Assembly (NCBI RefSeq): GCF_028583425.1
Contig: NC_072791.1
Location: 38,757,368 to 38,821,367, forward strand
Direction: 5' to 3'
Source: Eublepharis macularius
Taxonomy: Eukaryota > Chordata > Lepidosauria > Squamata > Eublepharidae
Length of the DNA: 64,000 nucleotides
The notes under the pieces were generated by a model. The model did no database searches. It was not told where the DNA came from and saw only the letters and a list, made by a program, of their open reading frames with translations. A program made the position numbers and the translations under genes. Numbering within the stretch: position 1 is the stretch's first letter; every line of letters begins with the position of its first letter. Below, piece after piece: positions 7,425 through 52,190 of this stretch.

Positions 7425-7473
7425 AACCCTCTTCCTCGTGTAGCAAGCCGCCGCACCTGCAAAGAGACCAAAG

Positions 7474-8412
7474 TCAAGAAGCGTTCACCTCTCCGCCCAA
7501 AGGGCGGACATAAGACCGGAAGGCCGCCGACCGCCAGCGTCCCAGACGCTGTATAACTGGGCCCGGGTACCCCATAGCCGCGGCCGTCGAAGCCGCCCCA
7601 ATCCTGAAGGAATGAGTCCCAAATTTCAAGCCGTCAAGACCCAGTTCCGACAAAGCCTTCCCAGTCACCGACCAAAACTGATATTTGGTCAATGGGGAGC
7701 CATCCTCGTGCCGGAAAAGCAGCCCGTCACCCTCTCCCCGAAGAGCCACATAGCACCTCAACGCGCTGACCGGGCATAGGCCAGGTTCAGCACAGCTGCC
7801 TAAACGTAACACGAATCCCTTACCCGCCTGGTCAGTCTTGGATCTCCGTACCCTAAGGGTGACCTCGTCACCCTCGAATTTGAGATCCTGCGCCCTCAAG
7901 GCACGGCCCGAGTGATCAGCCCGTGCCAGGGCCACCAATTCGCTGACCCTAAGCGCCCCAAAAAACGCGGTAAGGGAAGCCGCATGAAACAACGCCGCCT
8001 CAAACGGAGAGCGACACAACTTATCCCAAAGCTCGCCTAAACCCCTAAGAATAGTAGGGGAAATTGGCTGCCTATCGTCCCTGCGAGTCCCAGTTTCACG
8101 GGACCACCCTTCAAGCATTTTCCGCAAACGGAAATCGCCCGTCAGATCTGCAAGACCCTTGGCCTTACTAGCGAAGGCTAAAGCCGCTAGCTGACCCCTG
8201 ATAGACTTAACCGACAACCCAGAACCTCTCTGAGCCACGCAGAACTGCATGAGGTGCTGCACTGGTATAGGCCATACCTGTTGCAAACCCGCATTCCCCC
8301 TAAAACCCGCAAATTGACGCACTGCTCGATCGTACGACCGCCGCGAGCTGGGGGCCAGTGCCAGTTGAATAGCCCTTTCAGCCTCTAGCCTCCAAGGTTC
8401 CACAGTTCCCAT
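7474..8412 (-). CDS. Ngaro tyrosine recombinase
   Basis: This is a 312-aa frame from an ATG at 8412. It encodes a lambda-integrase-like tyrosine recombinase, which in Ngaro/DIRS elements replaces the DDE integrase and inserts the circular DNA without target duplication. The N-terminal part has a SAM-like core-binding region (RSYDRAVRQFAGF). The catalytic half shows the first Arg in FFGALRVSELV, the HxxR box as THSFRIGAAS, and GRWRSAAFRSYVRP containing the tryptophan and the nucleophilic tyrosine. Its start overlaps the end of the RT/RNase H frame by 28 bases, so both are probably read from one transcript. Length is normal for the family. Confidence 0.88.
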   Translation of the reverse strand: MGTVEPWRLEAERAIQLALAPSSRRSYDRAVRQFAGFRGNAGLQQVWPIPVQHLMQFCVAQRGSGLSVKSIRGQLAALAFASKAKGLADLTGDFRLRKMLEGWSRETGTRRDDRQPISPTILRGLGELWDKLCRSPFEAALFHAASLTAFFGALRVSELVALARADHSGRALRAQDLKFEGDEVTLRVRRSKTDQAGKGFVLRLGSCAEPGLCPVSALRCYVALRGEGDGLLFRHEDGSPLTKYQFWSVTGKALSELGLDGLKFGTHSFRIGAASTAAAMGYPGPVIQRLGRWRSAAFRSYVRPLGGEVNAS

Positions 8413-10370
8413 GGCATCGTGGTCGGTGCGGCGTCCGCCTCGGGGGCAAGCTGCCGAAACCGGGGAACCTGAAAGCGAGACAGAGCATCTGCCACGCTAT
8501 TGTCCAACCCAGGGACATGCCGAGCTAGAAACAAAATATTAAGCTTTAAACACCGGAGGGTGAAGGCACGAACCAGCCTCATGACCCTCGATGACCTAGA
8601 TGTAAGGGACCGGAGGACATGAACCACTGCCTGATTGTCGCACCAAAAGTGGACAGAGTGGTTTGCCAAGGTGTCCCCCCAAAGATGCACTGCTACTAGG
8701 ATCGGAAACAGTTCCAGAAAGGTGAGGTCCTTACACCATCCCCTTCTGACCCATTGTACCGGCCACCGTTCGGCACACCAGTGACCTTGAAAATAGACAC
8801 CGAACCCCAGGGACCCCGAAGCATCGGAGGCAACCTGCATATCCGCCGCTAACCTAAGAGGCTCCCTCCAAAATGAGACCCCGTTAAAGTCCCTGAGGAA
8901 TGCCTCCCAAACTTCCAGGTCCTCCCTCATCCCCCTATTGATGGAAAGGCGATGATGGGGGAGACGAAGTCCCCCCATGGCATCGCACAAGCGCCGGAGG
9001 AAGGCTCTGCCGGGGGCTACGACCCGGCAGGCGAAATTTAAATGCCCCACCAGCTGCTGGAGCTCACGCAACGTGGCTTTCTTCTTCCCTTTAAAAAGGG
9101 CCAGCCGAGTTCTGAGGTCGAAGAGCTTCTGGGCAGGCAACCGGGAGGCCTGCCTGATTGTGTCCAGCTCAATCCCCAAAAAGGTGAGGGTAGTAGCCGG
9201 ACCTTCCGTTTTCTCATGGGCGAGAGGCACGCCCAACTCAGCCGCCAAGGCAATAAAGCCCGTCAAAAGGCGGTGACACTGGCCCCCCCCGGGGGGCCCA
9301 ACGAAAAGGAAATCATCTAAATAATGGGCCGTGGCGCGGCACCGAAGCCGTGACCTGAGGGCCCATTCCAGAAACGAGCTGAAACGCTCAAAGGCTGCAC
9401 ACGAAATCGAGCAACCCATTGGCAATGCCCTATCCATATAAAACTGGCCATCAAACGAGAAGCCAAGCAACTCAAAGTCGTCCGGGTGAACCGGCAGAAG
9501 ACGAAATGCAGACTTTATGTCGCATTTTGCCATCTCGGCCCCCACCCCGCATTGCCTAACAACCTTGACAGCCTGATCGAAAGAAGTGTATCGAACAGAG
9601 CACATGTGCTCAGGGATGGCATCATTCACCGACCCCCCTCTAGGGTAGGACAAGTGATGAATGAGCCTGAATTCCCCCACGGCTTTCTTTGGGACCACAC
9701 CCAGGGGCGACACTCTCAGACACGGGACCGGGGGGGCCGGAAAGGGGCCCAGAACACGCCCCTCCAAACATTCTTTACCTATTTTACACCTAACAACCTC
9801 CTCCATGCCCACAACCGAACGTAAATTAGAGGACATGAAGGGAGCCCTAGGACCCTGGAAAGGAATCCTAAAGCCATAACGAAAACCTTCCAACAAAAAG
9901 TGCGCTTCCTCGCGTTTAGGGTACCCCACAAGGAGGCGTTCAAGAACCGTCAGGTTTATGGGGCTGGGGCCCTTTTCCAGCAGTAGCTGGGGGGCCCCCG
10001 CCCCCGCCCCCACCCCCACGCCTTCCCGCCCTCTTAGATTGCCTGGTGCAAGAAGTGAAAGGGTGGGGGCCACCACAGATTGGGCACTGGTGTTTAAAAT
10101 TGCACACCTTTCTGGAGCACACCCCTTGGGAACTAAAGTCCCAGCACAGCAGCCGGGGTTGAACCGGCTGCCCCGCGGGTGCGCGGGTGCCCTGCGTAGT
10201 CTGACTCCTCTGAACCAGGTGGCCACTATCCGAGCGGTCACCTGCATTCGGTTTGGCCGGGGACATGACCTGCAGCCAAAGCTGCTGGTGTATCCTGTCC
10301 CACTGCCAGGTCGGGTTGAGGGCGGCACGCATACGGAATTCCTCGTCGTATTGCAGCCAAGCTGCACCAA
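8385..10370 (-). CDS. Ngaro reverse transcriptase / RNase H
   Basis: This open frame of 661 codons copies the element RNA into DNA. RT motifs follow in order: SAFRLLPVHP, ALPMGCSISC and the catalytic HYLDDFLFVG. The RNase H domain follows, with acidic residues in SDASGSLGFG, LTFLELFPIL, WCDNQAVVHVL and NSVADALSRF. The RT is of the DIRS/Ngaro type within the LTR-retroelement assemblage. The first 140 or so codons overlap the 3' end of the gag-like frame in another phase, and the conserved domain begins near residue 125, so the true start is unresolved and may depend on frameshifting or an internal start. It is followed by the recombinase with a short overlap. Confidence 0.88.
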   Translation of the reverse strand: MVQLGCNTTRNSVCVPPSTRPGSGTGYTSSFGCRSCPRPNRMQVTARIVATWFRGVRLRRAPAHPRGSRFNPGCCAGTLVPKGCAPERCAILNTSAQSVVAPTLSLLAPGNLRGREGVGVGAGAGAPQLLLEKGPSPINLTVLERLLVGYPKREEAHFLLEGFRYGFRIPFQGPRAPFMSSNLRSVVGMEEVVRCKIGKECLEGRVLGPFPAPPVPCLRVSPLGVVPKKAVGEFRLIHHLSYPRGGSVNDAIPEHMCSVRYTSFDQAVKVVRQCGVGAEMAKCDIKSAFRLLPVHPDDFELLGFSFDGQFYMDRALPMGCSISCAAFERFSSFLEWALRSRLRCRATAHYLDDFLFVGPPGGGQCHRLLTGFIALAAELGVPLAHEKTEGPATTLTFLGIELDTIRQASRLPAQKLFDLRTRLALFKGKKKATLRELQQLVGHLNFACRVVAPGRAFLRRLCDAMGGLRLPHHRLSINRGMREDLEVWEAFLRDFNGVSFWREPLRLAADMQVASDASGSLGFGVYFQGHWCAERWPVQWVRRGWCKDLTFLELFPILVAVHLWGDTLANHSVHFWCDNQAVVHVLRSLTSRSSRVMRLVRAFTLRCLKLNILFLARHVPGLDNSVADALSRFQVPRFRQLAPEADAAPTTMPWELWNLGG

Positions 10371-11418
10371 CGAAGTCCGTATGTCCCCTATAAATTATAT
10401 CAATGTATTGGAATAACTGGGCAGCCTTCCAAGGCTGAGCCCTAGCCACCACGCCGGCATAGATTAACATGCCTGGCAGCCAGTTATGCCAGTTCCGCTC
10501 TATTTTCCTGCGCTTCAACCTTTCCTTATCGCGATCATCTAACTCCTCCTTGTCTTTCTTTTCCAAATCCCGAAACAGGAGATTGAAAACATCCACATAT
10601 TCGCCACGCAGAATCTTATCCCTAGTGGCGAGAGTTAAGTGATCACCTAGGGGCATCGCTGTATCCCCAAAAGGCATAGCTCCAAATGGAATGGACCCAT
10701 AACCGTGTGTCCCCCCCACAGGGAAGCCCCACGGATAGTAGCCCCACTGATTAAAGTGGCTCCCCGATGCCTGGGAACCAGGGACCGAGGGGGCCTGTCC
10801 TGAAGATGGGCCAGCTACATCGCTACTAGCGGCCTGAAGCGCATTCCATGATCCTTGGGGCCACACCGGATTAGCCCCATAGAACTGAGGGGGAACTCCT
10901 ATCGTGGAACCCACGTGCCCCTGGGGTGCAGATGGTGGAGCAGGTGCTTGACCCCAATGCCCCCAGGGCCAAGCCCCTGGTGTAACAGGTGCAGCCGACT
11001 TACCATCACCCTCAGGAGGTTGAATTGCAACTGCCACCTGCCCAGATTCCTCCTGCACGCTTTGCTCAGCTACGCCACTCAGTTCAACGGCTGTGGCTTC
11101 AGTCACCGTCACCTCGCAGGCTCGCTCCCCTGCTGCTGGCGTACCTGTACTTTCAAGAGCAGAAAGCCTATTAAGAACATCGCGCTGGAAGGTGGCTGAC
11201 GAAGCCAAAAGGGTTGAGCGAGCCCTCTTTGCTCTGCCGGTTGCTGAGCCACCAGCTCCCCTGGCTTGTTCTAAGGCAGTCAAGCGAGCCAAGATGTCTT
11301 GCCGGCCCTGCAAATCACCCTCATCCTCCGATGAGGAAGAAACCGGGGCTGGCCTCTTTGATAGTGGACGCTTCGCTGGCTGTTTGCCCTTAGACGGCCC
11401 TTTTCCCTTTCCCGGCAT
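9940..11418 (-). CDS. Ngaro gag-like protein
   Basis: This is the first coding region of the element. I take the ATG at 11418 (MPGKGKGPSKGKQPAKR) because the frame upstream of it to 11589 has no other ATG. The protein is about 492 aa: a basic Lys/Arg-rich N-terminus with an acidic Ser/Glu/Asp patch, a Pro/Gln/Gly-rich middle, a helical region near LATRDKILRGEYVDVFNLLF, and a C-terminal cysteine/histidine cluster (CWDFSSQGVCSRKVCNFKHQC) that resembles a zinc-binding nucleocapsid motif. It ends with a basic Gly-rich tail. It probably packages the element RNA. Sequence identity to known gag proteins cannot be judged by eye, but position and composition fit. Confidence 0.75.
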   Translation of the reverse strand: MPGKGKGPSKGKQPAKRPLSKRPAPVSSSSEDEGDLQGRQDILARLTALEQARGAGGSATGRAKRARSTLLASSATFQRDVLNRLSALESTGTPAAGERACEVTVTEATAVELSGVAEQSVQEESGQVAVAIQPPEGDGKSAAPVTPGAWPWGHWGQAPAPPSAPQGHVGSTIGVPPQFYGANPVWPQGSWNALQAASSDVAGPSSGQAPSVPGSQASGSHFNQWGYYPWGFPVGGTHGYGSIPFGAMPFGDTAMPLGDHLTLATRDKILRGEYVDVFNLLFRDLEKKDKEELDDRDKERLKRRKIERNWHNWLPGMLIYAGVVARAQPWKAAQLFQYIDIIYRGHTDFVGAAWLQYDEEFRMRAALNPTWQWDRIHQQLWLQVMSPAKPNAGDRSDSGHLVQRSQTTQGTRAPAGQPVQPRLLCWDFSSQGVCSRKVCNFKHQCPICGGPHPFTSCTRQSKRAGRRGGGGGGGGPPATAGKGPQPHKPDGS

Positions 11419-12181
11419 AATGTACACTGGGCCAGTACAACCCCACAGGAAAGGAGGAAGGCCACTCAAATGCCCTGCCCAGAACAATGCACAATACCCC
11501 CCAGGAAAGCAGGTACCAAGTGCAACCTGCAGCTCGTCAATCCCTATAACAACCCACCCTAACCGGGGGGGGGCGTGAGATACAACCACCTACTGGAGGG
11601 GGGGGCAGACAAACCAACACCTTCGCTGCTGCCTCCCTAGGGTGGGGGGGGGTGGAAAATGGAGGAGATATCCCTCAGCGCCAGCCACCCACCGGGGCGG
11701 GGGGGGGAACAGGGGAAGCTCGACAGCCCCTAATATAACCCCCCCTCCGATAAAGACCCCCGCGTCCCGGCGGCCTAACAGGGCCTCAACCGAACTGCTG
11801 CCCAGAGGGGACTCACAACCCCTCAACAATTAAGGCGCGGCCGCGCGAGCCGCAACGGCGGCGAGGCGCACGGGCTGAAGCCGGCCGAGCCGGGAAGGCA
11901 GGCGCCGAGTCACCCGACTCCGACCGCAGCCGCAGGCCCAGGCGCTTGCTCCCGCGCCGCGGACTGATCGCCGGGACTTGGGCTGCCTCGAAGAAGCGAC
12001 GCCGGGCGGGCCACACCCGGCAGGCGCGGGCGCGAGCGGCCGGCGAGCGGCAGCAGGCTCTCTGCCCGGCCGCTTGCCCAATCCGACCAAGGCCGCTGAG
12101 GCTGCCGACCGTCCTCCGCAACTGCACAGCCTCGCAGCCGCCGGCCCTGCACTCGGAGAGTTGCTACGTGCACCTCTCCCT
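11419..12181 (-). promoter_or_regulatory. Ngaro 5' leader, G/C-rich
   Basis: This is the stretch between repeat A1 and the gag ATG. It has several G runs on the plus strand (around 11574, 11596, 11644, 11696) and becomes very GC-rich with many CpG from 11830 to 12180. It should contain leader and promoter sequences of the minus-strand element, but no TATA box is obvious. Confidence 0.5.
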
Positions 12182-14569: not shown

Positions 14570-14577
14570 CAACAGAC

Positions 14578-14760
14578 TAGGGATGTGCGTTTCGGCATTC
14601 TGAATGCCGAAAGAATGCCGAAACAAAAGTGTTTCGGCATTCTTCAAGAATCCCGAAACGTTTCGGGGAATGCCGAAACGTTTCGGGATTGCCGAAAGAA
14701 AAACCCGAAACGTTTCGGGATTCTTTCGGCATTCTTTCGGCATTCGAGAATCGCCATTTT
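14578..14760. repeat. Left subterminal CCGAAA/TTTCGG array of the hAT
   Basis: Within about 170 bases there are roughly a dozen copies of CCGAAA or its complement, several as the palindrome CCCGAAACGTTTCGGG and others as TTTCGGCATTC. hAT transposases bind short repeated subterminal motifs besides the terminal repeats, so these are the likely binding sites. Confidence 0.75.
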
Positions 14761-14802
14761 GATTTTGCTAGCCGTTTGCCTTAGCAAGCGGCTAGCAAAA
14801 TC
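14761..14802. repeat. Perfect 14-bp-arm hairpin inside the left end
   Basis: GATTTTGCTAGCCG (14761-14774) pairs exactly with CGGCTAGCAAAATC (14789-14802) over a 14-base loop. It lies directly inside the CCGAAA array and may be part of the terminal DNA structure. Confidence 0.8.
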
Positions 14803-15401
14803 CTGCTGGAAGCAAAGGCTTCCTGCAGGCTCTTAGAAGAGGGGAGGGGGGGAGAAGGAGTGAATCACTCACTCCTTCTGTCACCCCCCACCCCTCTTGC
14901 AAAGGAGGATAGGGAATCCTGCTTTGCCTTGCAAATGCAAGGTGCAAGCATTGCATTGCACTTTGCATTTGCAAAGCAGCAGAGATTCCCGCCAAAACTA
15001 ACAGGTAGGGGAGGGGGAGCAGGAGGAGGGTGGCTCTTGGAGTGTGGGTGGGGAAAGGCAGGGGACTGGGGACTTTAGGAGTCACCAATCCCACTGCTGC
15101 ATTCTCATGCCAGCCAATAGATTTAAATCTTTGGCTGAGGCTGCAGCAGGGGATTTAAATTTGGAGCAAGACTGTCTGGAACACTTCTGTTGCTGCTGCT
15201 GCTGAGCTGTGACCGAGAGAGGAGAAGAAGAGAGACTGCACCTGGAGCCTGGAGGACATCTGCCTGGAGGATCAACTGTGCTGGACATCCTGAGAGGACA
15301 CCTGGTAGGCCTTTTTAAAATTTTTGTAAATTTTTTTGATGCTGGGCAATGTGCTGCTGTGGCCTGCCTCTGCAAAAAGGTGTTGCAGTTTATTCTTGGC
15401 A
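14803..15401 (+). promoter_or_regulatory. Putative promoter/first leader exon of the giant hAT
   Basis: The region holds GA-rich and CTG-rich sequence (TTGCTGCTGCTGCTGAGC near 15189). It ends in an exon-like block with GGATCAACTGTGCTGGACAT and a strong donor-like ACCTG|GTAGGC at 15304-15305. A related block with GGATCAACATTGCTGGACAT and CTG|GTAGGG recurs at about 18600-18694, and a third partial one at about 19132-19196. I infer non-coding leader exons upstream of the transposase gene. No transcript evidence is available. Confidence 0.4.
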
Positions 15402-18345
15402 TGGCCTGGGGGACAGGTTGGGCAGACAATGTTTAATGGTGGGGTGGGGGTTTCAGCATTGGTTGTTGTGCTTGCCTTCTTTAAGCTTGATCCACTGTTT
15501 TAAGATTAAAACAAGAGTGTGCCAGCTTTGGGCCTACACAGGCCAGAAGCCTTTCTTCTGGCTGGCTCTCACAGTTGTGCTTCACAATCTGGAATGGTGT
15601 GGCTTGCCTTTCTGTGTCTGGTCCCCTGCTTGCAAGGATTCCCAACAGGCTCCGTCCTGATCAACTGTGCCAGCCTGTGGGCCACACACAGGTATGGCCT
15701 GGGGGACAGGTTGGGCAGACAATGTTTGATGGTGGGGGGGGGGTTCAGCATTGGTTGTTGTGCTTGCCTTCTTTAAGCTTGATCCACTGTTTTAAGATTA
15801 AAACCAGAGTGTGCCAGCTTTGGGCCTACACAGGCCAGAAGCCTTTCTTCTGGCTGGCTCTCACAGTTGTGCCTCACAATCTGGAATGGTGTGGCTTGCC
15901 TTTCTGTGTCTGGTCCCCTGCTTGCAAGGATTCCCAACAGGCTCCGTCCTGATCAACTGTGCCAGCCTGTGGGCCACACACAGGTATGGCCTGGGGGACA
16001 GGTTGGGCAGACAATGTTTGATGGTGGGGGGGGGGGTTTCAGCATTGGTTGCTGTGCTTGCCTTCTTTAAGCTTGATCCACTGTTTTAAGATTAAAACCA
16101 GAGTGTGCCAGCTTCGGGCCTACACAGGCCAGAAGCCTTTCTTCTGGCTGGCTCTCACAGTTGTGCTTCACAATCTGGAATGGTGTGGCTTGCCTTTCTG
16201 TGTCTGGTCCCCTGCTAGCAAGGATTCCCAACAGGCTCCGTCCTGATCAACTGTGCCAGCCTGTGGGCCACACACAGGTATGGCCTGGGGGACAGGTTGG
16301 GCAGACAATCTTTGATGGTGGGGGGGGGGGTTTCAGCATTGGTTGTTGTGCTTGCCTTCTTTAAGCTTGATCCACTGTTTTAAGATTAAAACCAGAGTGT
16401 GCCAGCTTCGGGCCTACACAGGCCAGAAGCCTTTCTTCTGGCTGGCTCTCACAGTTGTGCTTCACAATCTGGAATGGTGTGGCTTGCCTTTCTGTGTCTG
16501 GTCCCCTGCTTGCAAGGATTCCCAACAGGCTCCGTCCTGATCAACTGTGCCAGCCTGTGGGCCACACACAGGTATGGCCTGGGGGACAGGTTGGGCAGAC
16601 AATGTTTGATGGTGGGGGGGGGGGGGTTCAGCATTGGTTGTTGTGCTTGCCTTCTTTAAGCTTGATCCACTGTTTGAAGATTAAAACCAGAGTGTGCCAG
16701 CTTCGGGCCTACACAGGCCAGAAGCCTTTCTTCTGGCTGGCTCTCACAGTTGTGCTTCACAATCTGGAATGGTGTGGCTTGCCTTTCTGTGTCTGGTCCC
16801 CTGCTAGCAAGGATTCCCAACAGGCTCCGTCCTGATCAACTGTGCCAGCCTGTGGGCCACACACAGGTATGGCCTGGGGGACAGGTTGGGCAGACAATCT
16901 TTGATGGTGGGGGGGGGGGGTTTCAGCATTGGTTGTTGTGCTTGCCTTCTTTAAGCTTGATCCACTGTTTGAAGATTAAAACCAGAGTGTGCCAGCTTCG
17001 GGCCTACACAGGCCAGAAGCCTTTCTTCTGGCTGGCTCTCACAGTTGTGCTTCACAATCTGGAATGGTGTGGCTTGCCTTTCTGTGTCTGGTCCCCTGCT
17101 AGCAAGGATTCCCAACAGGCTCCGTCCTGATCAACTGTGCCAGCCTGTGGGCCACACACAGGTATGGCCTGGGGGACAGGTTGGGCAGACAATGTTTGAT
17201 GGTGGGGGGGGGGGGTTCAGCATTGGTTGTTGTGCTTGCCTTCTTTAAGCTTGATCCACTGTTTGAAGATTAAAACCAGAGTGTGCCAGCTTCGGGCCTA
17301 CACAGGCCAGAAGCCTTTCTTCTGGCTGGCTCTCACAGTTGTGCTTCACAATCTGGAATGGTGTGGCTTGCTGTTCTGTGTCTGGTCCCCTGCTAGCAAG
17401 GATTCCCAACAGGCTCCGTCCTGATCAACTGTGCCAGCCTGTGGGCCACACACAGGTATGGCCTGGGGGACAGGTTGGGCAGACAATGTTTGATGGTGGG
17501 GGGGGGGGGTTCAGCATTGGTTGTTGTGCTTGCCTTCTTTAAGCTTGATCCACTGTTTGAAGATTAAAACCAGAGTGTGCCAGCTTCGGGCCTACACAGG
17601 CCAGAAGCCTTTCTTCTGGCTGGCTCTCACAGTTGTGCTTCACAATCTGGAATGGTGTGGCTTGCCTTTCTGTGTCTGGTCCCCTGCTAGCAAGGATTCC
17701 CAACAGGCTCCGTCCTGATCAACTGTGCCAGCCTGTGGGCCACACACAGGTATGGCCTGGGGGACAGGTTGGGCAGACAATGTTTGATGGTGGGGGGGGG
17801 GGGTTTCAGCATTGGTTGTTGTGCTTGCCTTCTTTAAGCTTGATCCACTGTTTGAAGATTAAAACCAGAGTGTGCCAGCTTCGGGCCTACACAGGCCAGA
17901 AGCCTTTCTTCTGGCTGGCTCTCACAGTTGTGCTTCACAATCTGGAATGGTGTGGCTTGCCTTTCTGTGTCTGGTCCCCTGCTAGCAAGGATTCCCAACA
18001 GGCTCCGTCCTGATCAACTGTGCCAGCCTGTGGGCCACACACAGGTATGGCCTGGGGGACAGGTTGGGCAGACAATGTTTGATGGTGGGGGGGGGGGGGT
18101 TCAGCATTGGTTGTTGTGCTTGCCTTCTTTAAGCTTGATCCACTGTTTGAAGATTAAAACCAGAGTGTGCCAGCTTCGGGCCTACACAGGCCAGAAGCCT
18201 TTCTTCTGGCTGGCTCTCACAGTTGTGCTTCACAATCTGGAATGGTGTGGCTTGCTGTTCTGTGTCTGGTCCCCTGCTAGCAAGGATTCCCAACAGGCTC
18301 CGTCCTGATCAACTGTGCCAGCCTGTGGGCCACACACAGGTATGC
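15402..18345 (+). repeat. 294-bp tandem array, ten copies, with G runs
   Basis: Ten head-to-tail units of 292-295 bp are almost identical. Each has GGCCTGGGGGACAGGTTGGG, then a run of about 5-13 G, GCATTGGTTG(T/C)TGTGCTTGCC, a CTTTAAGCTTGATCCACTG block, and the segment CTGGCTCTCACAG ... CACACAGGTATG. The unit length changes mainly through the G run. In every unit a pyrimidine-rich AG (TTCTTCTGGCTGGCTCTCACAG) and a donor-like CACAG|GTATGG bracket about 120 bases, so each could offer a small exon. The short open frames across the array are by-products of the repeat. A diverged partial unit without the G run continues to about 18530. Confidence 0.92.
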
Positions 18346-19680
18346 TGCTTTGGCCAAGGTAACCCTTTTTGGTTGCTGGCCTGGCACTCACAGTTGTGCT
18401 CCACAATCTGGAATGGTGTGGCTTGCGTTTCTGTGTCTGGTCCCCTGCTTGCAAGGATTCCCAACAGGCTCCGTCCTGATCAACTGTGCCAGCCTTCGGC
18501 CCACACACAGGCCTGCTGCTCCGGCTTTGGTAACCCTTCCCGTTTGCTGGCCTGGCACTCACTGTTTTGCTTCACATTCAGGTTGTTTATCGTTGGTGGA
18601 CCTCTTCTGGACTGGACTGCACTTGGTGGACATCGGCCTGCAGATCTCTGCGTGGAGGATCAACATTGCTGGACATCTGCACTGGTGGACTGGTAGGGTT
18701 GTTGTTAAATTTGGTTTTTGAGCTTATGTCTGCTGCTGTGCCTACCTGCGAGCATATGCTTTGGCTCTGTCTTTATGGCTTGGGCCGGGGGGGGGGGGGC
18801 ATTTTCTGGTTGGGCAAGAGGATATTGTTTGGGGGTTAGGGGGGCCAGCATTGATCGCAGTGGCAGCTTTCTTTCATGTTTCATTTTTCAAGTTTGAGTG
18901 TGGGGTGGGCATGAACTGCTGTTTCACAGGACTAAAAAATGAGTGTGCCAGCTTCTGGCCTGCACAGGCCAGAAGCTCTGCTGGGTGGATGTGTTTTGTT
19001 TTGCTGCTGGTTGGCCCTAGCCTTTAAGGGGGGGGGGGGCTGACTTGGCTTGTGCAACGGGGCCTTGAATTTTGGGGTTGCGTGTGCGGCGTGTGGTGTT
19101 GACTCTGCTAACATTTCCAATTTTCTTGACAGCATCGTGGAGGAGAGGAGGACCAGCTGCAAGACCGCCTGAACATCGCTGGACTGCAGGACTGGTGTTA
19201 GTGTGAGCGAGTCCGGGTTGACATTTGGGTGGCCTTGGGGGTGGGTTCTTGCTAGCTTGGGAGGGGGGAGGCTCATCTTCAAAACACCACATCCACACCC
19301 CACACCGACATACCACAGATACATCGGTCCCGCTAAATAGTGTCTCTTAGGTAGGTAGGCCAGTTGGTAGGTGATCAGTGGATAATTGCCCTCAACATAA
19401 TTATTAGGGAAACCGAGCCTAGTTTTTTTTAAAAAACTAAATAGGGACTCAGCAGGGAAAGCATTAGTGAGTGAGTGTTAGGTTTGAATTCTATATATAT
19501 ATATATATATATATAAAAATTTGTAATAGCTGTCAATAGGCTTCCCATTAGTGCCCCCATAACTAGGGTTCCACTGCCCATCTCTGGCACACGTGGTGGT
19601 GCCAGGCCGGCCCGGGCATACTAGTGTGTGAGTGTTTAAGGCTTCGTCACCTGTTATTGGGGTTTAGGGCCAGCTCAATT
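18346..19680 (+). other. hAT internal region upstream of the transposase
   Basis: After the diverged last repeat unit (18346-18530) comes an exon-like block (about 18582-18694, acceptor-like CACATTCAG, donor-like CTG|GTAGGG). G runs follow at 18788 and 19027, then a block with acceptor-like TTTTCTTGACAG at about 19132. A (TA)n run lies at 19492-19516. No protein frame of note is seen. Confidence 0.45.
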
Positions 19681-19697
19681 CCAGAGGAATTCAGCTG

Positions 19698-19760
19698 ATT
19701 GGCAGGCTCAGGTTCCCTGACATAAATAGGGTTGCTTAAAAAGGCACTTGATTGTTCATC
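19698..19760 (+). promoter_or_regulatory. Candidate proximal promoter of the transposase gene
   Basis: ATTGG (inverted CCAAT) at 19698-19702 is followed by ATAAATA at 19722-19728, a TATA-like box about 160 bases before the ATG. This fits a pol II start near 19750. Alternatively the gene is reached by splicing: a good acceptor, CTAAATCTTTTCTGATTAG, ends at 19857. The sequence alone does not decide between them. Confidence 0.4.
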
Positions 19761-19884
19761 TCCAAGTCACAGAGCCACTAGAAACACAGATTTATAGCAG
19801 GTTAGTTAGGTCTTGAAAACAAAGTTGACCTTTGTTTTCTAAATCTTTTCTGATTAGTTAGGGTTGAATTTGGGAGGGGAAAGT

Positions 19885-22623
19885 ATGTCAGAGAGGAAAG
19901 CAGAGAGGGGACCCGGGGGAAAGGCTAGGGAGAAATCTAGAGGGGAGGAGGGGAGGGGGAGGGGGACTGCTGCGGCAGCCCCTCCATCTGAGCGGAGGAG
20001 GCCCTCCCCTGCGCTGCTGCCGTTCACCAGCCTGGCTTCTGGTGACAGGAAGAGGGTTCGCAAGACTCTCTTTCCTGAGGCAGCTGCTGGAGGGCCACCC
20101 CCAACCCGGGTGCGTGAGGCAGGGGCTGGCACTGGGCAGGGGCCTGCTGCTGAGGCTCCTCCTCCTCCAGTGGTTGCGAGCCAGCTGCTGGAGGAGGGGC
20201 AGCATGTGGTGTCTCCTGGGATGGGCGCGGAGCACATGACTTTCCCTGCGCTCCCGCTCACCCCAGGAACCCGGAGGATGTTGGAGGAACTGCCCGTGAG
20301 ACCCCCCCTGGGGCGGTCCACCCCAGTTTCCTCTGAGGCCAGCAGCAGGCCTCTCGCGGCTGTGCAGGAGGAGAGGACGCGGGAGGAAGAGGCAGAGACT
20401 GTGGTGGAAGAGCCCACATCTCTGCCCCTTCAGCCTCGTCCATCCCCACCTGCCCGGCCGAGAGTGGGACACGGTGTGTCCGGCCAGAGCACCTCACAGG
20501 AGGTGCCGCAGGGTGGTCCCGAACGCGCTTCTCCTGGGAAGCGTGGGATGCCCTTTTCCTCCGAAATCTGGAAGCACTTCCAGACAACGGAGGATCCCCG
20601 AGCAGCCCTGTGCCTGCATTGTAGGCAGCGCGTCAGCCGTGGCAAAGATGTGTGGCATCTCTCCACGTCTGGGATGAGGTACCATATGAAGAGGCACCAC
20701 CAGGCGGTGCTTCTTCGGGAGGAGGGTTCGAGTGGCGCCGCACGGCCGCCAGCTAGCCAGAAGGAGGCAGGCTCCTCTGGTGCTCTCCCCCCAAGGGTAC
20801 CTGCAGGAAAGGGACGCCAAGCCTCTCTCCCGGAGATGCTTGGTATGCAGGGCGCTAGTGTGCCCAGAGAGGGGATCCGGAGGGCGAGCAGGCGCATCAC
20901 GCGCCACATCGTCAACATGATAGCAGTGGATGGGCAACCGTATTCCGTAGTTGAAGACTTCGGCTTCTCAGGGCTGCTCCAAGATTGCTTTCCCTGGTAC
21001 GCCGTCCCTGCTCGCACGTCGTTGAGCAGATCGGTGGTGCCCTCGTTTTACAGGGCTGCCAGGGATCATGTGAAGGCACAGCTGTCCCGGGTTGCCGGGA
21101 GAACTGTGCACTTCACATCGGACATCTGGACCTGCCCAAGTGTGCAGCAAGCGTACCTCTCGCTTACTGCTCACTGGTGGGAACCCGAGTCGGTTCTGGG
21201 TGGGGGCCGGGGGGAGGTGCCTAGCACAGCTAGACAGGGAAGGATGCGAGACCGCCAGGCCGGCTACTGCAAGGCCTTGCTTCACGCCGAGGTGCTCGAC
21301 GTGTCCCACACGGCGGAGAACATCGCTGCCACCTTAAGGAGACAGTTGGACGAGTGGATAGGCCAGGGACCCGCCACCGTGGGATGCATGGTGACGGACG
21401 GTGGCAAGAACATGAGGGCAGCGGCGCATCTAGTGAGCCGAGAGAGCGTCTACTGTGCCGCTCACAAGCTTCACCTAGTGGTGAGAGATGCGCTGGGGTT
21501 GGGCTCCTCGAAGGAACCCGTGGATACCCGGACCCGTGAACTCCAGTTACTTGTCCAGAAATGTCGGAGGCTCACGGGTCACTTCTCGTGCAGCGTGAAG
21601 GCCACGCACGAACTGCGCCAGACACAGGTCAGGACAGGTGTGCCAGAGCACGCTCTGATCACTGACGTCAGCACTCGCTGGAACTCCACCTGCGCCATGC
21701 TTGAGCGCTTGGTGGAGCAGCAGGCCGCACTCCACGCGTGGCTCTCCGAGCACCGCGGTGCGAGTCAGGTGGGTGAGTTCAACCGGGAGGATTGGCTCAC
21801 CATCACCCAGACAGTGGAGGTCCTGAAGCCCTTCAAGGACTTCACTGTGGCGGTCTCGTCAGACACGGCGACCCTCGGTCTGGTCATTCCCCTGGTGCAC
21901 ACGCTCCAGAGGAATCTGGCCACCCTTGCAGACCGGGTCGCGCCCCGTGCTGACCTTGTTCCAGCGGTGCGCGCATTAGTGAGAAGGCTGCAGCAGGGCA
22001 TAGCTGCCAGGCTAACTCCTCTCACTAAGGAAGAGTCATACATGTTGGCGACCATGTGTGACCCGCGCATAAAGGGCACTTTCGCCGAGCGGGACGGGAA
22101 CCTCACCCAAGCCAGAGACGGGCTCTGCTCTTGGGTGAGGCGCAGGCAGGCCAAGAGGGGACGCCTGTCGACAGGGGGGACGCAAGAGGGGCCCTGCCGT
22201 GCGGGTCCCTCTGACGCCCCCTCTGCGCAGGCCCCCCCCGAGGCCACCACCGGAGTGCCGATGGAGATGGAGATGCTCCGGTGGGCCCTCGTCCCCTCTG
22301 GGGTCGTGAGGACCGTGAGAGAGGATCCGGCGGAGGCGATGGTCAGGGACTACCTCGCGGAGCCCTGCGAGTCGCTCTCCACCGATCCGCTCAGCTACTG
22401 GGCCAGGAAGGAGTCGGTCTGGCCGGACCTCTCCCTCGAGGCGCAGCGGCTGCTCTCATGCCCTCCGACGAGCGTGGAGAGCGAGCGCGTCTTTTCACAT
22501 GCGGGCGACATTGTCGGCCCACATCGCACTCGCCTTCTCCCATGGAGAGTCGAGCAGTTGACCTTCCTGAAGGTCAACTCTCGCCTCTTCGATTTCTCAG
22601 GACTGGACTTCCAGAGTGACTGA
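19885..22623 (+). CDS. hAT transposase with BED zinc finger (912 aa)
   Basis: The protein cuts and rejoins the element DNA. I chose the ATG at 19885 (MSERKAERGPGG); the frame extends seven codons upstream to a TTG, but no ATG lies there. Residues 1-220 are a low-complexity Pro/Glu/Arg-rich tail. A BED finger spans about 222-275, with CLHC and later MKRHHQ supplying zinc ligands. The RNase H-like core follows: TSDIWTC (Asp near 413), MVTDGGKNMRAA (Asp near 505) and ISTRWNST-like DVSTRWNST. The C-terminal hAT dimerisation block (about 837-900) has LSYWARKE, SVESERVFSHAG and RTRLLPWRVEQLTFLKVN. The frame is fully open and GC-rich, unlike its AT-rich surroundings. It is ZBED-like, but its place inside TIRs and a TSD shows a transposon gene, not a domesticated one. 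The tail makes it longer than many hAT transposases. Confidence 0.93.
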   Translation: MSERKAERGPGGKAREKSRGEEGRGRGTAAAAPPSERRRPSPALLPFTSLASGDRKRVRKTLFPEAAAGGPPPTRVREAGAGTGQGPAAEAPPPPVVASQLLEEGQHVVSPGMGAEHMTFPALPLTPGTRRMLEELPVRPPLGRSTPVSSEASSRPLAAVQEERTREEEAETVVEEPTSLPLQPRPSPPARPRVGHGVSGQSTSQEVPQGGPERASPGKRGMPFSSEIWKHFQTTEDPRAALCLHCRQRVSRGKDVWHLSTSGMRYHMKRHHQAVLLREEGSSGAARPPASQKEAGSSGALPPRVPAGKGRQASLPEMLGMQGASVPREGIRRASRRITRHIVNMIAVDGQPYSVVEDFGFSGLLQDCFPWYAVPARTSLSRSVVPSFYRAARDHVKAQLSRVAGRTVHFTSDIWTCPSVQQAYLSLTAHWWEPESVLGGGRGEVPSTARQGRMRDRQAGYCKALLHAEVLDVSHTAENIAATLRRQLDEWIGQGPATVGCMVTDGGKNMRAAAHLVSRESVYCAAHKLHLVVRDALGLGSSKEPVDTRTRELQLLVQKCRRLTGHFSCSVKATHELRQTQVRTGVPEHALITDVSTRWNSTCAMLERLVEQQAALHAWLSEHRGASQVGEFNREDWLTITQTVEVLKPFKDFTVAVSSDTATLGLVIPLVHTLQRNLATLADRVAPRADLVPAVRALVRRLQQGIAARLTPLTKEESYMLATMCDPRIKGTFAERDGNLTQARDGLCSWVRRRQAKRGRLSTGGTQEGPCRAGPSDAPSAQAPPEATTGVPMEMEMLRWALVPSGVVRTVREDPAEAMVRDYLAEPCESLSTDPLSYWARKESVWPDLSLEAQRLLSCPPTSVESERVFSHAGDIVGPHRTRLLPWRVEQLTFLKVNSRLFDFSGLDFQSD

Positions 22624-22970
22624 GGTGAGCCCAACTTGTGGCCTGCATCCTCTATGAGTCCAATCCTTTGGAATCGCGCTCTCCCCTGTATAAAACCCTG
22701 TATATACAGTTAAAACCGGCCAGTAGAGGGAGGGTGGTTAGGAACCAGTGGCAAAGGGAAAACACCCAGCAATTTGAAAGCCCCCCCCCCAGGGTATTCA
22801 AAACATCTCCCATCACTGAGACATACCCTGTGGGACCAAATTTATTATGAAAAATAATGCCCCAGAAACATGGATTGCTACTGGAGGGAGAAACAGGTTA
22901 GATAGGGATTGCTTAGGTGTTTTTATCAGATGAAATCATTGTAAAAAAAATTGTAGAAGAATTGTTGTAC
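22624..22970 (+). other. 3' UTR of the hAT transposase
   Basis: This is non-coding sequence after the stop codon, with no further gene. The 3' UTR runs on through the A-rich tandem repeats to the poly(A) signal at 23891. Confidence 0.6.
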
Positions 22971-23370
22971 TGTTTTTTGAAAGTTGATGTTCTGTTCATG
23001 TAAAAAAAAGGAAAAAAAACCAAAAAAAAATGTTGTGATTATGTTTTTTAAAAGTTGATGTTCTGTTCATGTAAAAAAAAGGAAAAAAAAACCCAAAAAA
23101 ATGTTGTGATTATGTTTTTTAAAAGTTGATGTTCTGTTCATGTAAATAAAAGGAAAAAAAAACCAAAAAAAAATGTTGTGCTTATGTTTTTTAAAAGTTG
23201 ATGTTCTGTTCATGTAAAAAAAAGGAAAAAAAAACCCAAAAAAATGTTGTGATTATGTTTTTTAAAAGTTGATGTTCTGTTCATGTAAAAAAAAGGAAAA
23301 AAACCCAAAAAAAAATGTTGTGCTTATGTTTTTTAAAAGTTGATGTTCAGTTCATGTTTAAAAAAAAAAA
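22971..23370 (+). repeat. About 70-bp A-rich tandem repeat, six copies
   Basis: The unit TTTTAAAAGTTGATGTTC / TGTTCATGTAAAAAAAAGG / AAAAATGTTGTG(A/C)TTATG repeats six times at about 71-base spacing. It lies in the 3' UTR of the transposase gene. Differences between units are mainly A-run lengths and a C/A change. Confidence 0.9.
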
Positions 23371-23616
23371 TTTGATGTTAATGTTGGGTTTGCATGGTTG
23401 GGGGATGCGGGAAGAGTGGTGGATGGGCACCGGCCAATGATGATCTCTCACAGATGTTCCCAGGTAAATTCTGAGGCTGGTGTGGGGGTGGGGGGAGACC
23501 TCTGCAGAACTGCTCCAGAAATACCATTGTCCAGTGCCTTGGAAGTGCCCAGTTCAGCTTTGTGTGTCTGAACTGAAAGCACAGCCACAGGAAATGACAT
23601 AGGTTCTGCTGGACCC

Positions 23617-24145
23617 TGTTGCAGTGGTTCCCCCCCATTAAGTCGTTTTATGGAGGGAGAGTTGTATTAGGCTGGTAGTTATTATGATCATCTTCTGTTT
23701 CCATGCCCTGTTGTGCCCGCTCACTATGTAACCTGTTGTAATGTTCAAAACTTTACTGTTTGTCCATTTCAAAAAAAAAATTGTGTTTAAGATTCTCTGA
23801 TGTGTAGTTAATTGTGTTGTGTTGTGCTATGAGGGACAATAAGTGTAATATGTTGTGATTTGTTGACCACTTGTAATTTGAAAATGAGAAAATAAAGGTT
23901 TTTTAAACTTAATGATTGTGTGTCTGTGTTCCCTTCTTTGATGGGAGGTTGGTTCCCAGCATAGGGAACAATGGGGCAGGCTGGCCAGCCTGTTCCTGGG
24001 GTACTCGGTGTGGGGCAGCTGAGGGTGGTTTTGGTTCTGAGAGGGGCTGAGTGGAGGATTTGGGTCTGTGTGTGGCAGCTGGGGTGGGGGAACTGGGTTT
24101 GTGTGGGGCTGAAAGGAGTGGACTATGGGGGATGAGAGCACTGGT
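23617..24145 (+). repeat. 3' region duplication of the hAT, copy 1
   Basis: The segment from GTTGCAGTGGTTCCCCCCCA onward is repeated at 26629-27320 with few differences (offset 3012 in the first 375 bases). The second copy has about 160 extra bases at 27005-27165. Both copies include a poly(A) signal and the GATTTGGGTCTGTGTGTGGC block. Confidence 0.88.
23891..23935 (+). terminator. Poly(A) signal of the hAT transcript
   Basis: AATAAA at 23891-23896 is followed within 30 bases by the GT-rich element GATTGTGTGTCTGTGTTCCC, the normal arrangement of a vertebrate cleavage and polyadenylation site. It lies about 1.27 kb after the transposase stop. Confidence 0.75.
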
Positions 24146-26389
24146 CGTCCCTTTTGCCCAAGTAGGCCCCTGCTACTGTCCTGGTGTGGGCTTCCATGCC
24201 TCTATCAGTTGCTGGCCCTCCTTTGCCATCTTTTTCAGAAATTTTCCTAGGGCTGCCAAACTCCTGGTTGGGCTTGAGTTCAGGTTAGAGAGAGTAGTTC
24301 CCTACAGATAAACTGGCTGCTTCCAAGGGCAATCTCTTTAGAGGGCAAATGCGGACCATGGATTCTGGGGGAGATCCCTACTCAGATTTTCCTTTGCACA
24401 AGTCCCACCCCCAAATTGCCAGTAACTTCCAAGGCCAGAGTTTGCCACCCCAGAGAGATCCCGTTCCCACCCTCTTAGCCTTGGCATGAAAGTTGTAGCC
24501 ACCATGGAACGCTTCCAGGTTCCTGATTCCAAGCCCAATGACACCAATGTAAGACAATCCAGACCTCCATCAAAAATGGATTTTAAGTAGCAGTGGGATT
24601 GGGCTGCATTTCAGTCATTCACATATCTGGTTGTGTTCCCAAACATTTAGCTTATGGTTTTTTAAATCGGCGTATGGCACTTAAGGACACTTTTAAATGG
24701 TTCTAAAAACATATTTTTATTATGAAGTATTTAATGTGGCATTGATCAAGGGCAGGCCTTTTGGCCAAATGAGCAGTATCAGTACAGTAAAATTTAGACA
24801 AAGCTCATAGGAGGAAAAAGCATTCACACTGTGAAGTGGGAAGAAAGTTTCAATTTACATGTACCATGGACTCCGAAAAAGACATGTCCAGACCAAATCA
24901 GGCCTGCTTTCTCCCTTGAAGATATCAATTGATGATAGTGCTTATGTCACATCATGAGAAGACAAGGTTCACTAGAAAAGACAATAATGCTAAGAAAAAT
25001 TGAAGGCAGTAGGGAAAAGAAGAATACCCTAGATGTGGTAGATTGACTTCGGTTTGCAATACATGGACAAGGTTTTTGGGATACTGTGGAGCTCAATATA
25101 ATTCTAAAGTACACCACAAGTGATTTGAATGCATAAAACATACAGACACATACACATAAAATGTATATACCCCCTCCCCACCAAATTAAAGGTTTATCTT
25201 ATGCCCCGGTTTTCTCCCCCATGGGAACCTAGAGTGGTTTACACATTGCTGTTCTCCCTTGATTTGTTTCACCCTCATCACAACCAGGCTAACAATAGAC
25301 AGCTGCTCCATGCCTCACATTGGAGTGACTCCACCGATGGCCTTCTTAGTTGTATGAGGGGGTGGAGGGGGGGGGAGGAAGGAAACAACGCACTCCTGCC
25401 CACTCTATCTGGGGCCTAGGTTGCCAAATTGCTTGGCCTTGGCAAGGAGCCAGTGGTGGGGCGGCACTGGTTCTGGGGCCCCGTCAAGAACATTTGTCCA
25501 GGGCCCCAAAATCACCTAGACTGCCTCTGGAAAACACAACACAATTGTTTACTTAGGCTGAGCCAAGAACATCCATCAAGCCTACAAGGCACAGAATCAG
25601 AGTCTGCCAGATTCTAGACCAACTCTCTAGCCATTGCACTACAGTGGATATCTAAAAATTGTTCATACCCCCACCAGCAACTTGAACATTTTTCTCCAAA
25701 AGGCACACAACTTGGCTGGGTCTCAAAAAGGACTATGATGCATGGGCCTGTCAATGCATACTGGTACTAAGGCTCTGGCCGGGGGGAGGGGGGCATTGTG
25801 CCAATGCCACCCTGGCTTTGGAAGGGGACAGTAAAATAGAAGAAATAATCTAGCTTCAGTGCCTCCCCCCCTTCTCTCTCTCTCTCTCTCTCTCTATAAT
25901 GTGAGTGAAAACATTACTATACCATCACTGAAGCCTACAGGATACATAGGGTCTGTTCACACACGCATGATCATTTAATGGCAATGCTCTGGCATGATGA
26001 TGTCTGTTCTAGGAAGTGATGTGATCATCACACAAGGCTGGGGAGCACGCACAATTCACAGCAGGCAGATTTGGGCCACAAGGGATCCTGCTTTGGCCTG
26101 CAGGGCCCAAATCAGCCCACTGCAAAGCACAGGCATACTCTCAGGGCAGCCAGATGACATCAGTGACATCACGGCAGCAGCCCCTGGAGCGTACCTTGAA
26201 GGCTCATTCACTGACTTTCCCCCTTCGGGGTGATAGGTGAGAGTGGGGGATCCCCCACCAAGGGGAAACGGATCCCTAATTGTGTCTGAGGTTGTGGAAA
26301 TCAAATGGGTCATATTGCTTCTGTCTTTGAGGGACTTACATGCACATTATATTTAACTCCAGATTTCTTGATTGTCAAGGAATGCATGT
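24146..26389. other. hAT interior of unclear origin
   Basis: This stretch between the two 3' duplications looks like captured host-type DNA. It contains a diverged BovB piece (24936-25110), a SINE/LINE-tail fragment on the minus strand (about 25170-25330, with CCCATGGGAACCTAGAGTGG) and a (TC)n run at 25872-25895. No gene is supported. Older repeats inside a young transposon suggest the element picked up flanking DNA or received insertions. Confidence 0.5.
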
Positions 26390-27660
26390 GGTGGGGGGTG
26401 GGGGGAAGGGTGGGAGAAGGGCCCCTGAGGGTGAGGGTGGCATTTGGCATGCAAAATGCCACCCCTGGCAAGACAAGCCTCTCCCAGCTGTCAGTGGTAG
26501 AGATGAGAGCAGAGCACCTACTTGGGGAGGCCATGAAATGGCCCCCCCAAGTGGGAGCAGGCTGAGCCTTGGTGGGGGGATGGGAGGAAGGGTGGGAGAA
26601 GGGCCCCAGAGGGTTGGGGGGGGGATTTTGTTGCAGTGGTTCCCCCCCATTAAGTCGTTTTATGGAGGGAGAGTTGTATTAGGCTGGTAGTTATTATGAT
26701 CATCTTCTGTTTCCATGCCCTGTTGTGCCCGCTCACTATGTGACCTGTTGTAATGTTCAAAACTTTACTGTTTGTCCATTTCAAAAAAAAAAATGTGTTT
26801 AAGATTCTCTGATGTGTAGTTAATTGTGTTGTGTTGTGCTATGAGGGACAATAAGTGTAATATGTTGTGATTTGTTGACCACTTGTAATTTGAAAATGAG
26901 AAAATAAAGGTTTTTTAAACTTAATGATTGTGTGTCTGTGTTCCCTTCTTTGATGGGAGGTTGGTTCCCAGCATAGGGAACAATGGGGCAGGCTGGCCAG
27001 CCTTCTCTGCGGGTGGTGGGGGGGTCAGGGGGGTGGTTGTCTGTGTGCCAGGGCAGGTGCTCTTTCCCAGGGACGATTTGGCACTGCCACCATTGTGGCA
27101 CCCCTTGTCTGTGCAGAACTGCCCTGGGAAAGAGAGTTTAGGGGTTCCCAAAAGGGGAGGGCAGGCCAGCCTGTTCCTGGGGTTATGGTGGGTGTGGGGC
27201 AGGTGGGGGTTGATTTGGGTCTGTGAGGGGCTACTGGGGGGATTTGGGTCTGTGTGTGGCAGCTGGGGGGGAATTGGGTTTGTGTGGGGCTGTGAAGGGT
27301 GGACTTTAGGGGCTGAGAGCACCTACTTGGGGAGGCCATGAAATGGCCCCCCCCAAGTGGGAGCAGGCTGAGCCTTGGTGGGGGGTGGGAGGAGGGGTGG
27401 GAGAAGGGCCCCAGAGGGTTGGGGGGCATTTTGCATGCAAAATGCCACCCCTGGCAACACAAGCCTCCCCCAGCTGTCAGTGGTAGAGATTAGAGCACCT
27501 ACTTGGGGAGGCCATGAAATGGCCCCCCCAAGTGGGAGCAGGCTGAGCCTCGGTGGGGGGTGGGAGGAGGGGTGGGAGAAGGGCCCCTGAGGGCTGGGGG
27601 GCATTTTGCATGCAAAATGCCACCCCTGGCAAAGGAAGCCTGCTTCTTCATTTTTTCCCC
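26390..27660 (+). repeat. About 180-bp repeats and 3' duplication copy 2
   Basis: A unit with GAGCACCTACTTGGGGAGGCCATGAAATGGCCCCCC, GCAGGCTGAGCC, GGGAGAAGGGCCCC and ATTTTGCATGCAAAATGCCA (palindromic ATTTTGCATGCAAAAT) occurs at about 26395-26625, 27318-27494 and 27494-27650. Between the first and second lies duplication copy 2 (26629-27320), with its own AATAAA at 26903-26908. Confidence 0.8.
26903..26945 (+). terminator. Second poly(A) signal in the hAT
   Basis: This is the duplicate of the signal at 23891, with the same downstream GT-rich tract. It would end any transcript that reads through the first site. Confidence 0.65.
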
Positions 27661-27799
27661 ATAGGAAATAATGAAGAAGATGCTCCTTTATGGGAGGATG
27701 GGGGGACCTGCTTTGGGGGGCCATAACATGGCCCCCCAAAGTCCAATCTGTCTGAAACTTGGGTGGGTGTTAGAGAAGGGTTAGAGGAAGGTCCCCACC

Positions 27800-28028
27800 A
27801 ATTTTGGGCTTATTTGGTGGGAAAATGCCTCCTCCAGGCGTCCTGAAAGACGGAGGCATTTTCCCAGCAAAATAACCCGAAAGAATCCCGAAAGAATGCC
27901 GAAATAATGCCGAATCCCGAATCCCGAAAGAGATTCTTGTTTCGGCATTCGGCTAATGCCGGTAGAGAATCTTGTTTCGGGTAATCCCGAAACAAGAAAG
28001 CCGAAAGTTTTTTCCTTGCACACCCCTA
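27800..28028. repeat. Right subterminal CCGAAA array and terminus of the hAT
   Basis: CCGAAA/TTTCGG motifs recur about ten times between 27868 and 28010 (AATCCCGAAAGAATGCCGAA and similar). The sequence ends in GCACACCCCTA at 28028. The motif density mirrors the left end. Confidence 0.75.
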
Positions 28029-28036
28029 CAACAGAC

Positions 28037-50549: not shown

Positions 50550-50726
50550 AAATGCTTGTTGTAAATCTCTTAAATGGGAGTCCCGATCAAGAGCATTGGA
50601 GCAGATACAGTTGTAACGTAAGGCTTGGCTGTAGACAATTGACCGAGTGGTATGTTTAAGGTGGTAGCTGGCGGCATGTAGATATGAGTATCGGTCTGTG
50701 GGTTTCTGGTATAAGGTGGTATTTAT

Positions 50727-51737: not shown

Positions 51738-52190
51738 TGAGGAGTTCCGGGGTGTCCATGTGGAATTCTTTTTTCTGGAGTTTTGTAACGATGGTTGTGT
51801 ATTGCTGGGTTGGGGGGGGGCTGCTGTGATGGTGTCTGTTCAGTGCTTTGTTCATCGTTTTGTTCAGCAGAGTAGTTGAAGAATTCTTTCAGTCTTAGGC
51901 GTCTAAAATAGGCCTCTAGGTCTCCACAAAGTTGTATGGTTTGTGTGGGTCTGGCTGGGCAAAAAGATAATCCACTTGAGAGGACAGATTCCTCTGCTGG
52001 GCTCAGTTTGTGGCTGAAGAGGTTGATAATGTTGCTAGATGGATCCAAAGTGTTCTTGTTCCCTGTTGCATGCAGGAGTTTTGAGAATTTCTTCTCCTTC
52101 TTGTTCTGTAATTCAGTAAGTAGGGTGCAATAGATAGTTTCTCTGGTTTTGGTAAACAGAAACTGGAGCTTCTCTTTACTAACCATGGCT

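Follow-up and report, generated by a model that had tools for sequence, protein, structure and literature searches.

A 13.45-kb element of Eublepharis macularius as a probable full-length member of a giant, Ac-like hAT transposon family

Transposons of the hAT superfamily are given as 2.5–5 kb long in the available text of PMC3942097. Ac of maize measures 4.6 kb and bears hexamer repeats in the outermost 200 bp on either side (PMC3260210), and the Ac/Ds system, as outlined in the same source, shares with the element studied here an 8-bp target-site duplication (TSD), 11-bp terminal inverted repeats (TIRs), deletion derivatives and filler DNA. The transposases are comparable in size, with 807 aa in Ac and 912 aa here, and CGG hexamers are clustered in the terminal ~200 bp of both elements, as AAACGG in Ac and TTTCGG here (PMC3260210). 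Unlike Ac with its 4.6 kb, however, the present family is 12–20 kb long; it carries large tandem arrays, its 3' region is duplicated, and its transposase sequences number in the hundreds. Tol2 of medaka is likewise a vertebrate hAT with a BED finger and a DDE transposase (PMC8151067). Experimental cargo of 10–11 kb, according to the same text, is accepted by Tol2 without loss of efficiency, and ~200 kb in all (PMC8151067), which makes long hATs mechanically plausible. Natural Tol2 is nevertheless only ~4.7 kb long, whereas the giant size observed here is natural, is accompanied by a high copy number and occurs in more than one subfamily. In Hermes, a hAT whose structure has been solved, the VTD, C..H, TRWNST and SER-FS regions align with our transposase, but the overall similarity is low, and Hermes was used as a yardstick for motifs only.

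Unusually long elements containing captured DNA are represented by Polinton/Maverick, Teratorn, enlarged CACTA and Pack-MULE elements (PMC6431247), but their enzymes differ from the hAT transposase found here. The whole word "hAT" occurs 0 times in the available text of that review of giant eukaryotic transposons (PMC6431247), and the titles and abstract openings of open-licence literature, among the matches listed, describe no giant hAT family. The size and abundance of the present element are unusual for hAT; the kind itself is known.

The window, that is, the whole stretch of 64,000 nucleotides analysed (E. macularius, assembly GCF_028583425.1, contig NC_072791.1, positions 38,757,368 to 38,821,367 of the forward strand), contains an element spanning 14578–28028 (13,451 bp). 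The octamer CAACAGAC lies directly outside it at 14570–14577 and, in identical form, at 28029–28036. The left TIR TAGGGATGTGC (14578–14588, plus strand) and the right TIR TAGGGGTGTGC (28018–28028, minus strand) are 11 bp long, differ from each other by one mismatch and are the only two exact matches to TAGGGRTGTGC in the window. When up to one mismatch was allowed, this motif was found at four sites compared with 2.76 expected, so that the TIRs alone provide little proof; the octamer occurs three times against a chance mean of 2.32. The weight of the boundary evidence therefore lies in the positions of the TIRs and TSD and in the other genomic copies. According to the earlier note on this DNA, a hAT element of 13.45 kb lies here between exact TSDs of 8 bp and is several times longer than usual hATs; the boundaries agree with this description, and the excess in length is about threefold (12–20 kb in 37 copies compared with 2.5–5 kb), a typical length being descriptive rather than defining for hAT.

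An open frame on the plus strand (19858–22623) encodes, from the ATG at 19885, a transposase of 912 aa without an internal stop (19885–22623), as had been claimed before. Two Pfam domains were matched, namely the BED zinc finger (zf-BED PF02892, E 3.1e-8) and the hAT C-terminal dimerisation domain (Dimer_Tnp_hAT PF05699, E 1.3e-15). The phmmer match to the Hermes transposase (E 1.6e-8 overall) covers the SER-FS region, where the catalytic E lies, and the alignment of the VTD, C..H and TRWNST stretch is weak when taken alone (i-Evalue 0.44). Single-sequence structure prediction of residues 323–921 reached a pLDDT of 38, too low for judging the fold, and the model was discarded. The fifth PDB match, a GntR regulator (E 0.0017), was taken as chance. 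No other ORF in the element exceeds 205 aa; a minus-strand frame of 181 aa and a frame within one of the arrays gave no Pfam match at E ≤ 0.1 and were taken as non-coding.

The transposase frame was intact in both young copies examined end to end. In a genome search with this frame, all 40 scored matches (window included) covered 2,766/2,766 bp with a printed identity of 100, and bit scores of 4984, compared with 4989 for the self-match, correspond to about one mismatch among these best 40 of the candidate list. The window ORF has a missense difference at 21589 relative to both young copies compared in full, so that the window copy itself may be less active.

Membership in hAT is solid on the basis of the TSD, the TIRs and the transposase domains. 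TSDs of 8 bp flank the window copy, 37 of the 38 further end pairs and both of two more diverged copies, the TIRs are short, and the Pfam domains are accompanied by Hermes motifs, the core alone being weak. The protein-primed polymerase B and retroviral-type integrase of Polinton/Maverick elements did not appear in a Pfam analysis of three frames of the element, in which no frame apart from that of the transposase is longer than 205 aa. The TSD profile of 61 insertions showed T at position 2 in 43/61 and A at position 7 in 49/61, with no preference for a central TA (T at position 4 in 11/61, A at position 5 in 12/61). The TSD preference of the Ac group is nTnnnnAn. That of Buster is nnnTAnnn (PMC3517528), and our profile fits the Ac group rather than Buster.

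Motif counts further revealed subterminal repeats at both ends, of the TTTCGGCATTC type with variants on both strands on the left (14590–14745) and of the CCGAAA/GAATGCCG type on the right (27876–28006). With up to one mismatch, TTTCGGCATTC occurs at 15 sites in the window compared with 0.83 expected, and all of them lie within 14590–14745 or 27883–28006. TTTCGG/CCGAAA was counted 13 times in the first 170 bp, 8 times in the last 170 bp and twice in the other ~13.1 kb of the element. By analogy with Ac, the left subterminal repeats are likely to be a transposase-binding region. The designation "Ac-like", which we use as a sequence-based label, draws on the TSD, the motifs and these subterminal repeats.

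The internal arrays mentioned in the earlier note were recovered by a repeat scan, all on the plus strand: a 5' tandem array with ten units of ~294 bp (15401–18344), followed by a related array of 171 bp × 2.2 (18206–18576); an A-rich array of 71 bp × 5.5 (22971–23367) between the ORF and the putative poly(A) signal; and a direct repeat of 175 bp × 1.8 (27316–27632). The 3' region is duplicated in direct orientation on the plus strand, copy A (23617–23991, with AATAAA at 23891–23896) and copy B (26629–27003) being 99.5% identical; outside this part the duplicated regions are ~82% alike (23970–24141 vs 27151–27322), and AATAAA followed by a GT-rich stretch is present in both. The segment between them (23992–26388), which includes the 54-mer at 24220–24273 used below as an internal marker, is probably captured host DNA, consisting partly of old repeats; the names BovB and SINE, given to captured pieces in the earlier note, are tentative. 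Comparison of the element at E ≤ 1e-6 with ~140 kb of other sequence from the same genome, namely the rest of the window and the flanks of other copies, gave two matches, both to fetched flanks: 24946–25027 to a repeat in the flank of another copy (81.7% over 82 bp) and 27701–27839 to another copy's flank (78% over 139 bp).

Further repeats were observed elsewhere in the window. Long overlapping minus-strand frames at 6855–11589 matched Pfam Lipase_GDSL_2 (just below the curated cut-off), Phage_integrase and RVT_1, a fourth frame there having no Pfam match, and we take this region, from its appearance, to be a largely open DIRS/Ngaro-type tyrosine-recombinase retrotransposon. At 49806–52207 (minus strand), an RVT_1 frame is followed by a GIY-YIG frame, both still long, which presumably belong to a Penelope-like element. 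A tandem array of 136 bp × 9.1 with 95% matches lies at 54297–55527, and Rfam and tRNA scans of the whole window were empty.

The window's own genome (2,236,738,225 bases in 72 contigs) was searched with the left (183 bp) and right (229 bp) ends. Each query gave 40 scored main-strand matches, window included, all at 100% identity and being the best 40 of 1,307–2,049 candidates per query; such best-scoring lists bias any estimate of youth towards young copies. The 40 right ends comprised the window, 36 ends paired with a left end and three unpaired among the left ends listed, and two further pairs found from left ends raised the number of other end pairs to 38. The flanking 8-mers were identical at 37 of these 38 pairs. 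The sole exception, C2:172777-187110 (14,334 bp), is flanked by the different octamers CCCAAGAG and GAAGTTAG, possibly owing to recombination between two copies or to rearrangement. Among the 37, a deletion derivative (7,607 bp, TSD GTTTCAAC) has lost internal sequence, the transposase included; the remaining 36 together with the window copy range from 11,973 to 19,717 bp, with a median of 13,444 bp. All octamers of the 61 insertions (window included; many known on one side only) are different. Every fetched end, 30/30 on the left (including the window, L013) and 30/30 on the right, continues into the element interior, and in the copies checked the ends, the transposase and the internal segment follow one another in the same order.

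The earlier note had held that full-length copies with different TSDs, together with orthologous empty sites in relatives, would confirm a mobile unit of this size. Such copies are abundant among the 38 other pairs, with locus-specific octamers at 37, and the left and right ends co-occur around one interior at 36 other loci with lengths of 12–20 kb. These data show that the family has moved as one 12–20 kb unit, leaving an 8-bp TSD.

Joined-flank queries from 38 insertions (37 others and the window) were compared with ~155 kb of flank and window sequence, and one query gave junction-spanning matches. It belongs to the insertion at C2:235473359, whose target is LINE-like reverse-transcriptase sequence; the joined flanks align without a gap to window 41941–42236 (75% over 296 bp), with a second, weaker junction-spanning match (69% over 146 bp). 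To judge from this alignment, window 41941–42236 is an uninterrupted paralogous site of the C2:235473359 insertion. A relative of this target is seen in a LINE-like minus-strand frame of the window at 41046–41993 (RVT_1, E 4.2e-23).

Counting by an exact unit 24-mer gave 10 units of 294 bp in the window copy, 9 with one double step (probably 10) in C2:101946706, and 30 with three steps of 465–466 bp in the 19,717-bp copy (C2:2821230-2840946), these steps suggesting the duplication of multi-unit blocks. Among 38 distances from the left end to the internal marker, 21 differ from that of the window by near-multiples of 294 bp (three by zero, window included), 11 lie near a half unit and 6 fit neither. 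Together, landmark spacing and the arrays read in three copies indicate that unit number varies among copies. The spacing from the transposase to the right end is more constant: of 19 other copies, 18 stay between −5 and +3 bp of the window's value, and the remaining one has +139 bp, which would correspond to about two units of the 71-bp array as estimated from spacing. Changes in this 71-bp array may lie behind some of the half-unit steps; in C1:43343243, the odd step is upstream of it. In L050 (C3:132032471-132052048, 19,578 bp, perfect TSD), similarity is lost near element position 11,776, so that a nested insertion, and not an array, may account for its length.

Exact matches to parts of the element are numerous in the genome, with 1,033 for a right-terminal 29-mer, 706 for a transposase 54-mer, 412 for the internal 54-mer and 258 for a left-terminal 54-mer; each reversed control gave 0. 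Differences between subfamilies explain part of this spread in numbers: neither of the diverged copies B1 and B2 (described below) has a left end that matches the left 54-mer. If ~700 copies had the median length of 13.4 kb, the family would amount to ~9 Mb, or ~0.4% of the genome. In a survey of contig C1 below 245.7 Mb, 67 of 72 exact transposase 54-mers were accompanied on the same strand by an exact right end no more than 20 kb away. For 62 of the 72 this end was 6.2–7.1 kb downstream (window, 6,638 bp), for one it was closer (4.3 kb) and for four farther, and the other five lacked one at up to 20 kb. Among the transposase-bearing copies looked at, the long form prevails. In agreement, the internal 54-mer follows 38 of the 40 left ends (window included) at distances implying lengths of 11.5–19.7 kb, the other two being the deletion derivative and a copy whose collinearity extends to element position 5941 or beyond. 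The exact internal 54-mer lies within 10 kb of 29/76 transposase copies on C1; in B1 and B2, which lack the exact 54-mer, the segment is present in diverged form.

The scored copies are very similar to each other. Relative to the window copy, 6 substitutions in 18,557 bp were counted on the 5' side of 29 left-end loci and 8 in ~43 kb on the 3' side of 29 right-end loci, the queried ends and the 5' array being excluded from both counts, with L050 left out of the 3' comparison (innermost ~54 bp unaligned). C2:101946706 (13,451 bp, TSD GTCACAAC) differs from the window copy by 28 substitutions and 26 gap columns; the two tandem arrays account for 23 of the substitutions, which leaves 5 for the ~9.9 kb outside them. 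The young copies compared thus differ by ~0.02–0.05% outside the tandem arrays, the lists favouring young copies. At a substitution rate of ~1e-9 per site per year, the insertions of these selected copies would date roughly to the last few hundred thousand years.

Two diverged copies, B1 and B2, are 12,642 and 12,863 bp long by their coordinates, have perfect TSDs (ATCATAAC and CTCTTCTG) and share the long anatomy of the window copy. In B2, the ORF is frameshifted, the main blocks are 91.6–97.5% identical, one 5' bin differs by up to 13.5%, and an extra stretch of ~1.5 kb is present. B1 (L110/L111, C1:25.27 Mb), which was chosen for its coding-region match, has about one difference in the 2,766 bp of the transposase frame, judged by score, and a mean difference of ~1% in its non-coding parts (0–3% in nearly all bins). 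Recombination between subfamilies is likely in B1, since selection on the protein alone would leave silent changes. As B1 and B2 share the giant anatomy, the giant form is no isolated case and goes back further than the latest burst. The "giant" hAT lineage suspected in the earlier note is thereby substantiated by these two copies and the 36 further long, TSD-flanked ones.

Based on this evidence, the window copy is very probably a full-length and presumably autonomous member of a giant, Ac-like hAT family that moves by cut and paste. In the mechanism that we propose, the transposase would bind the TTTCGG-type subterminal repeats and bring the distant ends together, and the element would be excised by hAT DDE chemistry and reinserted at nTnnnnAn sites. 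Copy number could increase through repair of the excision gap from the sister chromatid or through movement from replicated to unreplicated DNA. Errors of gap repair may have added length, duplicating the 3' region around host-derived filler, and slippage and unequal exchange during the same repair may have changed the arrays. The composite 3' end may be the product of aberrant repair, or of two related copies that transposed together with host DNA between them, and would later have been partly homogenised. The giant form would have remained competent for transposition and passed to more than one subfamily.

Other readings of these data were weighed. The two ends could be separate small hAT MITEs lying near each other, or a chance pairing, and the near-chance counts of the octamer (3 vs 2.32 expected) and of the one-mismatch TIR (4 vs 2.76) in the window would allow for this; however, the identical octamers at 37/38 other end pairs and the continuation of 30/30 left and 30/30 right ends into the interior refute this reading, and its chance of being correct is practically nil. 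Nor is there any appreciable likelihood that the long copies arose when recombination, and not transposition, multiplied a single segmental duplication. The near-identity of the two fully compared copies over ~9.9 kb of non-array sequence is what such a process would leave, but it is refuted by the distinct TSDs: the octamers differ at all 61 insertions, a TSD of its own marks each of 37 among the 38 paired loci, and for one target site an empty paralogue aligns without a gap. A normal-sized autonomous hAT might instead supply the transposase, the giant copies being passengers mobilised in trans. The deletion derivative without a transposase indicates that trans-mobilisation happens or happened, and 34 of the 100 right ends listed on C1 are unpaired with an exact transposase 54-mer. 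This reading is very improbable in view of the 62 of 72 C1 transposase 54-mers with a right end at the long-form distance of 6.2–7.1 kb, only one being clearly closer (4.3 kb).

The DNA transposons of vertebrates are mostly inactive, and this counts for a family that transposed until the recent past and is now silenced or broken. The intact ORF in 2/2 young copies, the full-length frame in 40/40 scored matches, and the few substitutions among young copies (8 in ~43 kb on the 3' side and 6 in 18.6 kb on the 5' side) speak against recent extinction, which we regard as possible but doubtful. Against the preferred reading of the window copy as an autonomous giant hAT stand the octamer mismatch at one of 38 pairs and the 5/72 C1 transposases for which 20 kb of sequence contained no exact right end. 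A more far-reaching form of it would be a giant vertebrate hAT that is autonomous and still active, with the 5' array serving as a tunable promoter/enhancer that gap repair re-sets at each transposition, its length being under selection and expression evolving by copy-number change. The monomer arrays of mouse L1 offer a parallel for a tandem array of promoter type. We consider this extended proposal unlikely as a whole and put it forward as speculation.

hATs are in use for gene delivery, and for natural elements a length of 2.5–5 kb is given. A 12–20 kb family with hundreds of transposase copies in one genome means that size is no strong brake on hAT spread, and its ends and transposase form a natural large-cargo pair that is a candidate for testing. 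The family also provides a natural experiment on the gain of filler DNA and on array change during cut-and-paste transposition. To judge by the likeness of its copies, the family appears to have been spreading as a long unit until recently, and the near-identity of so many of them marks this species as one in which an active vertebrate DNA transposon might be caught.
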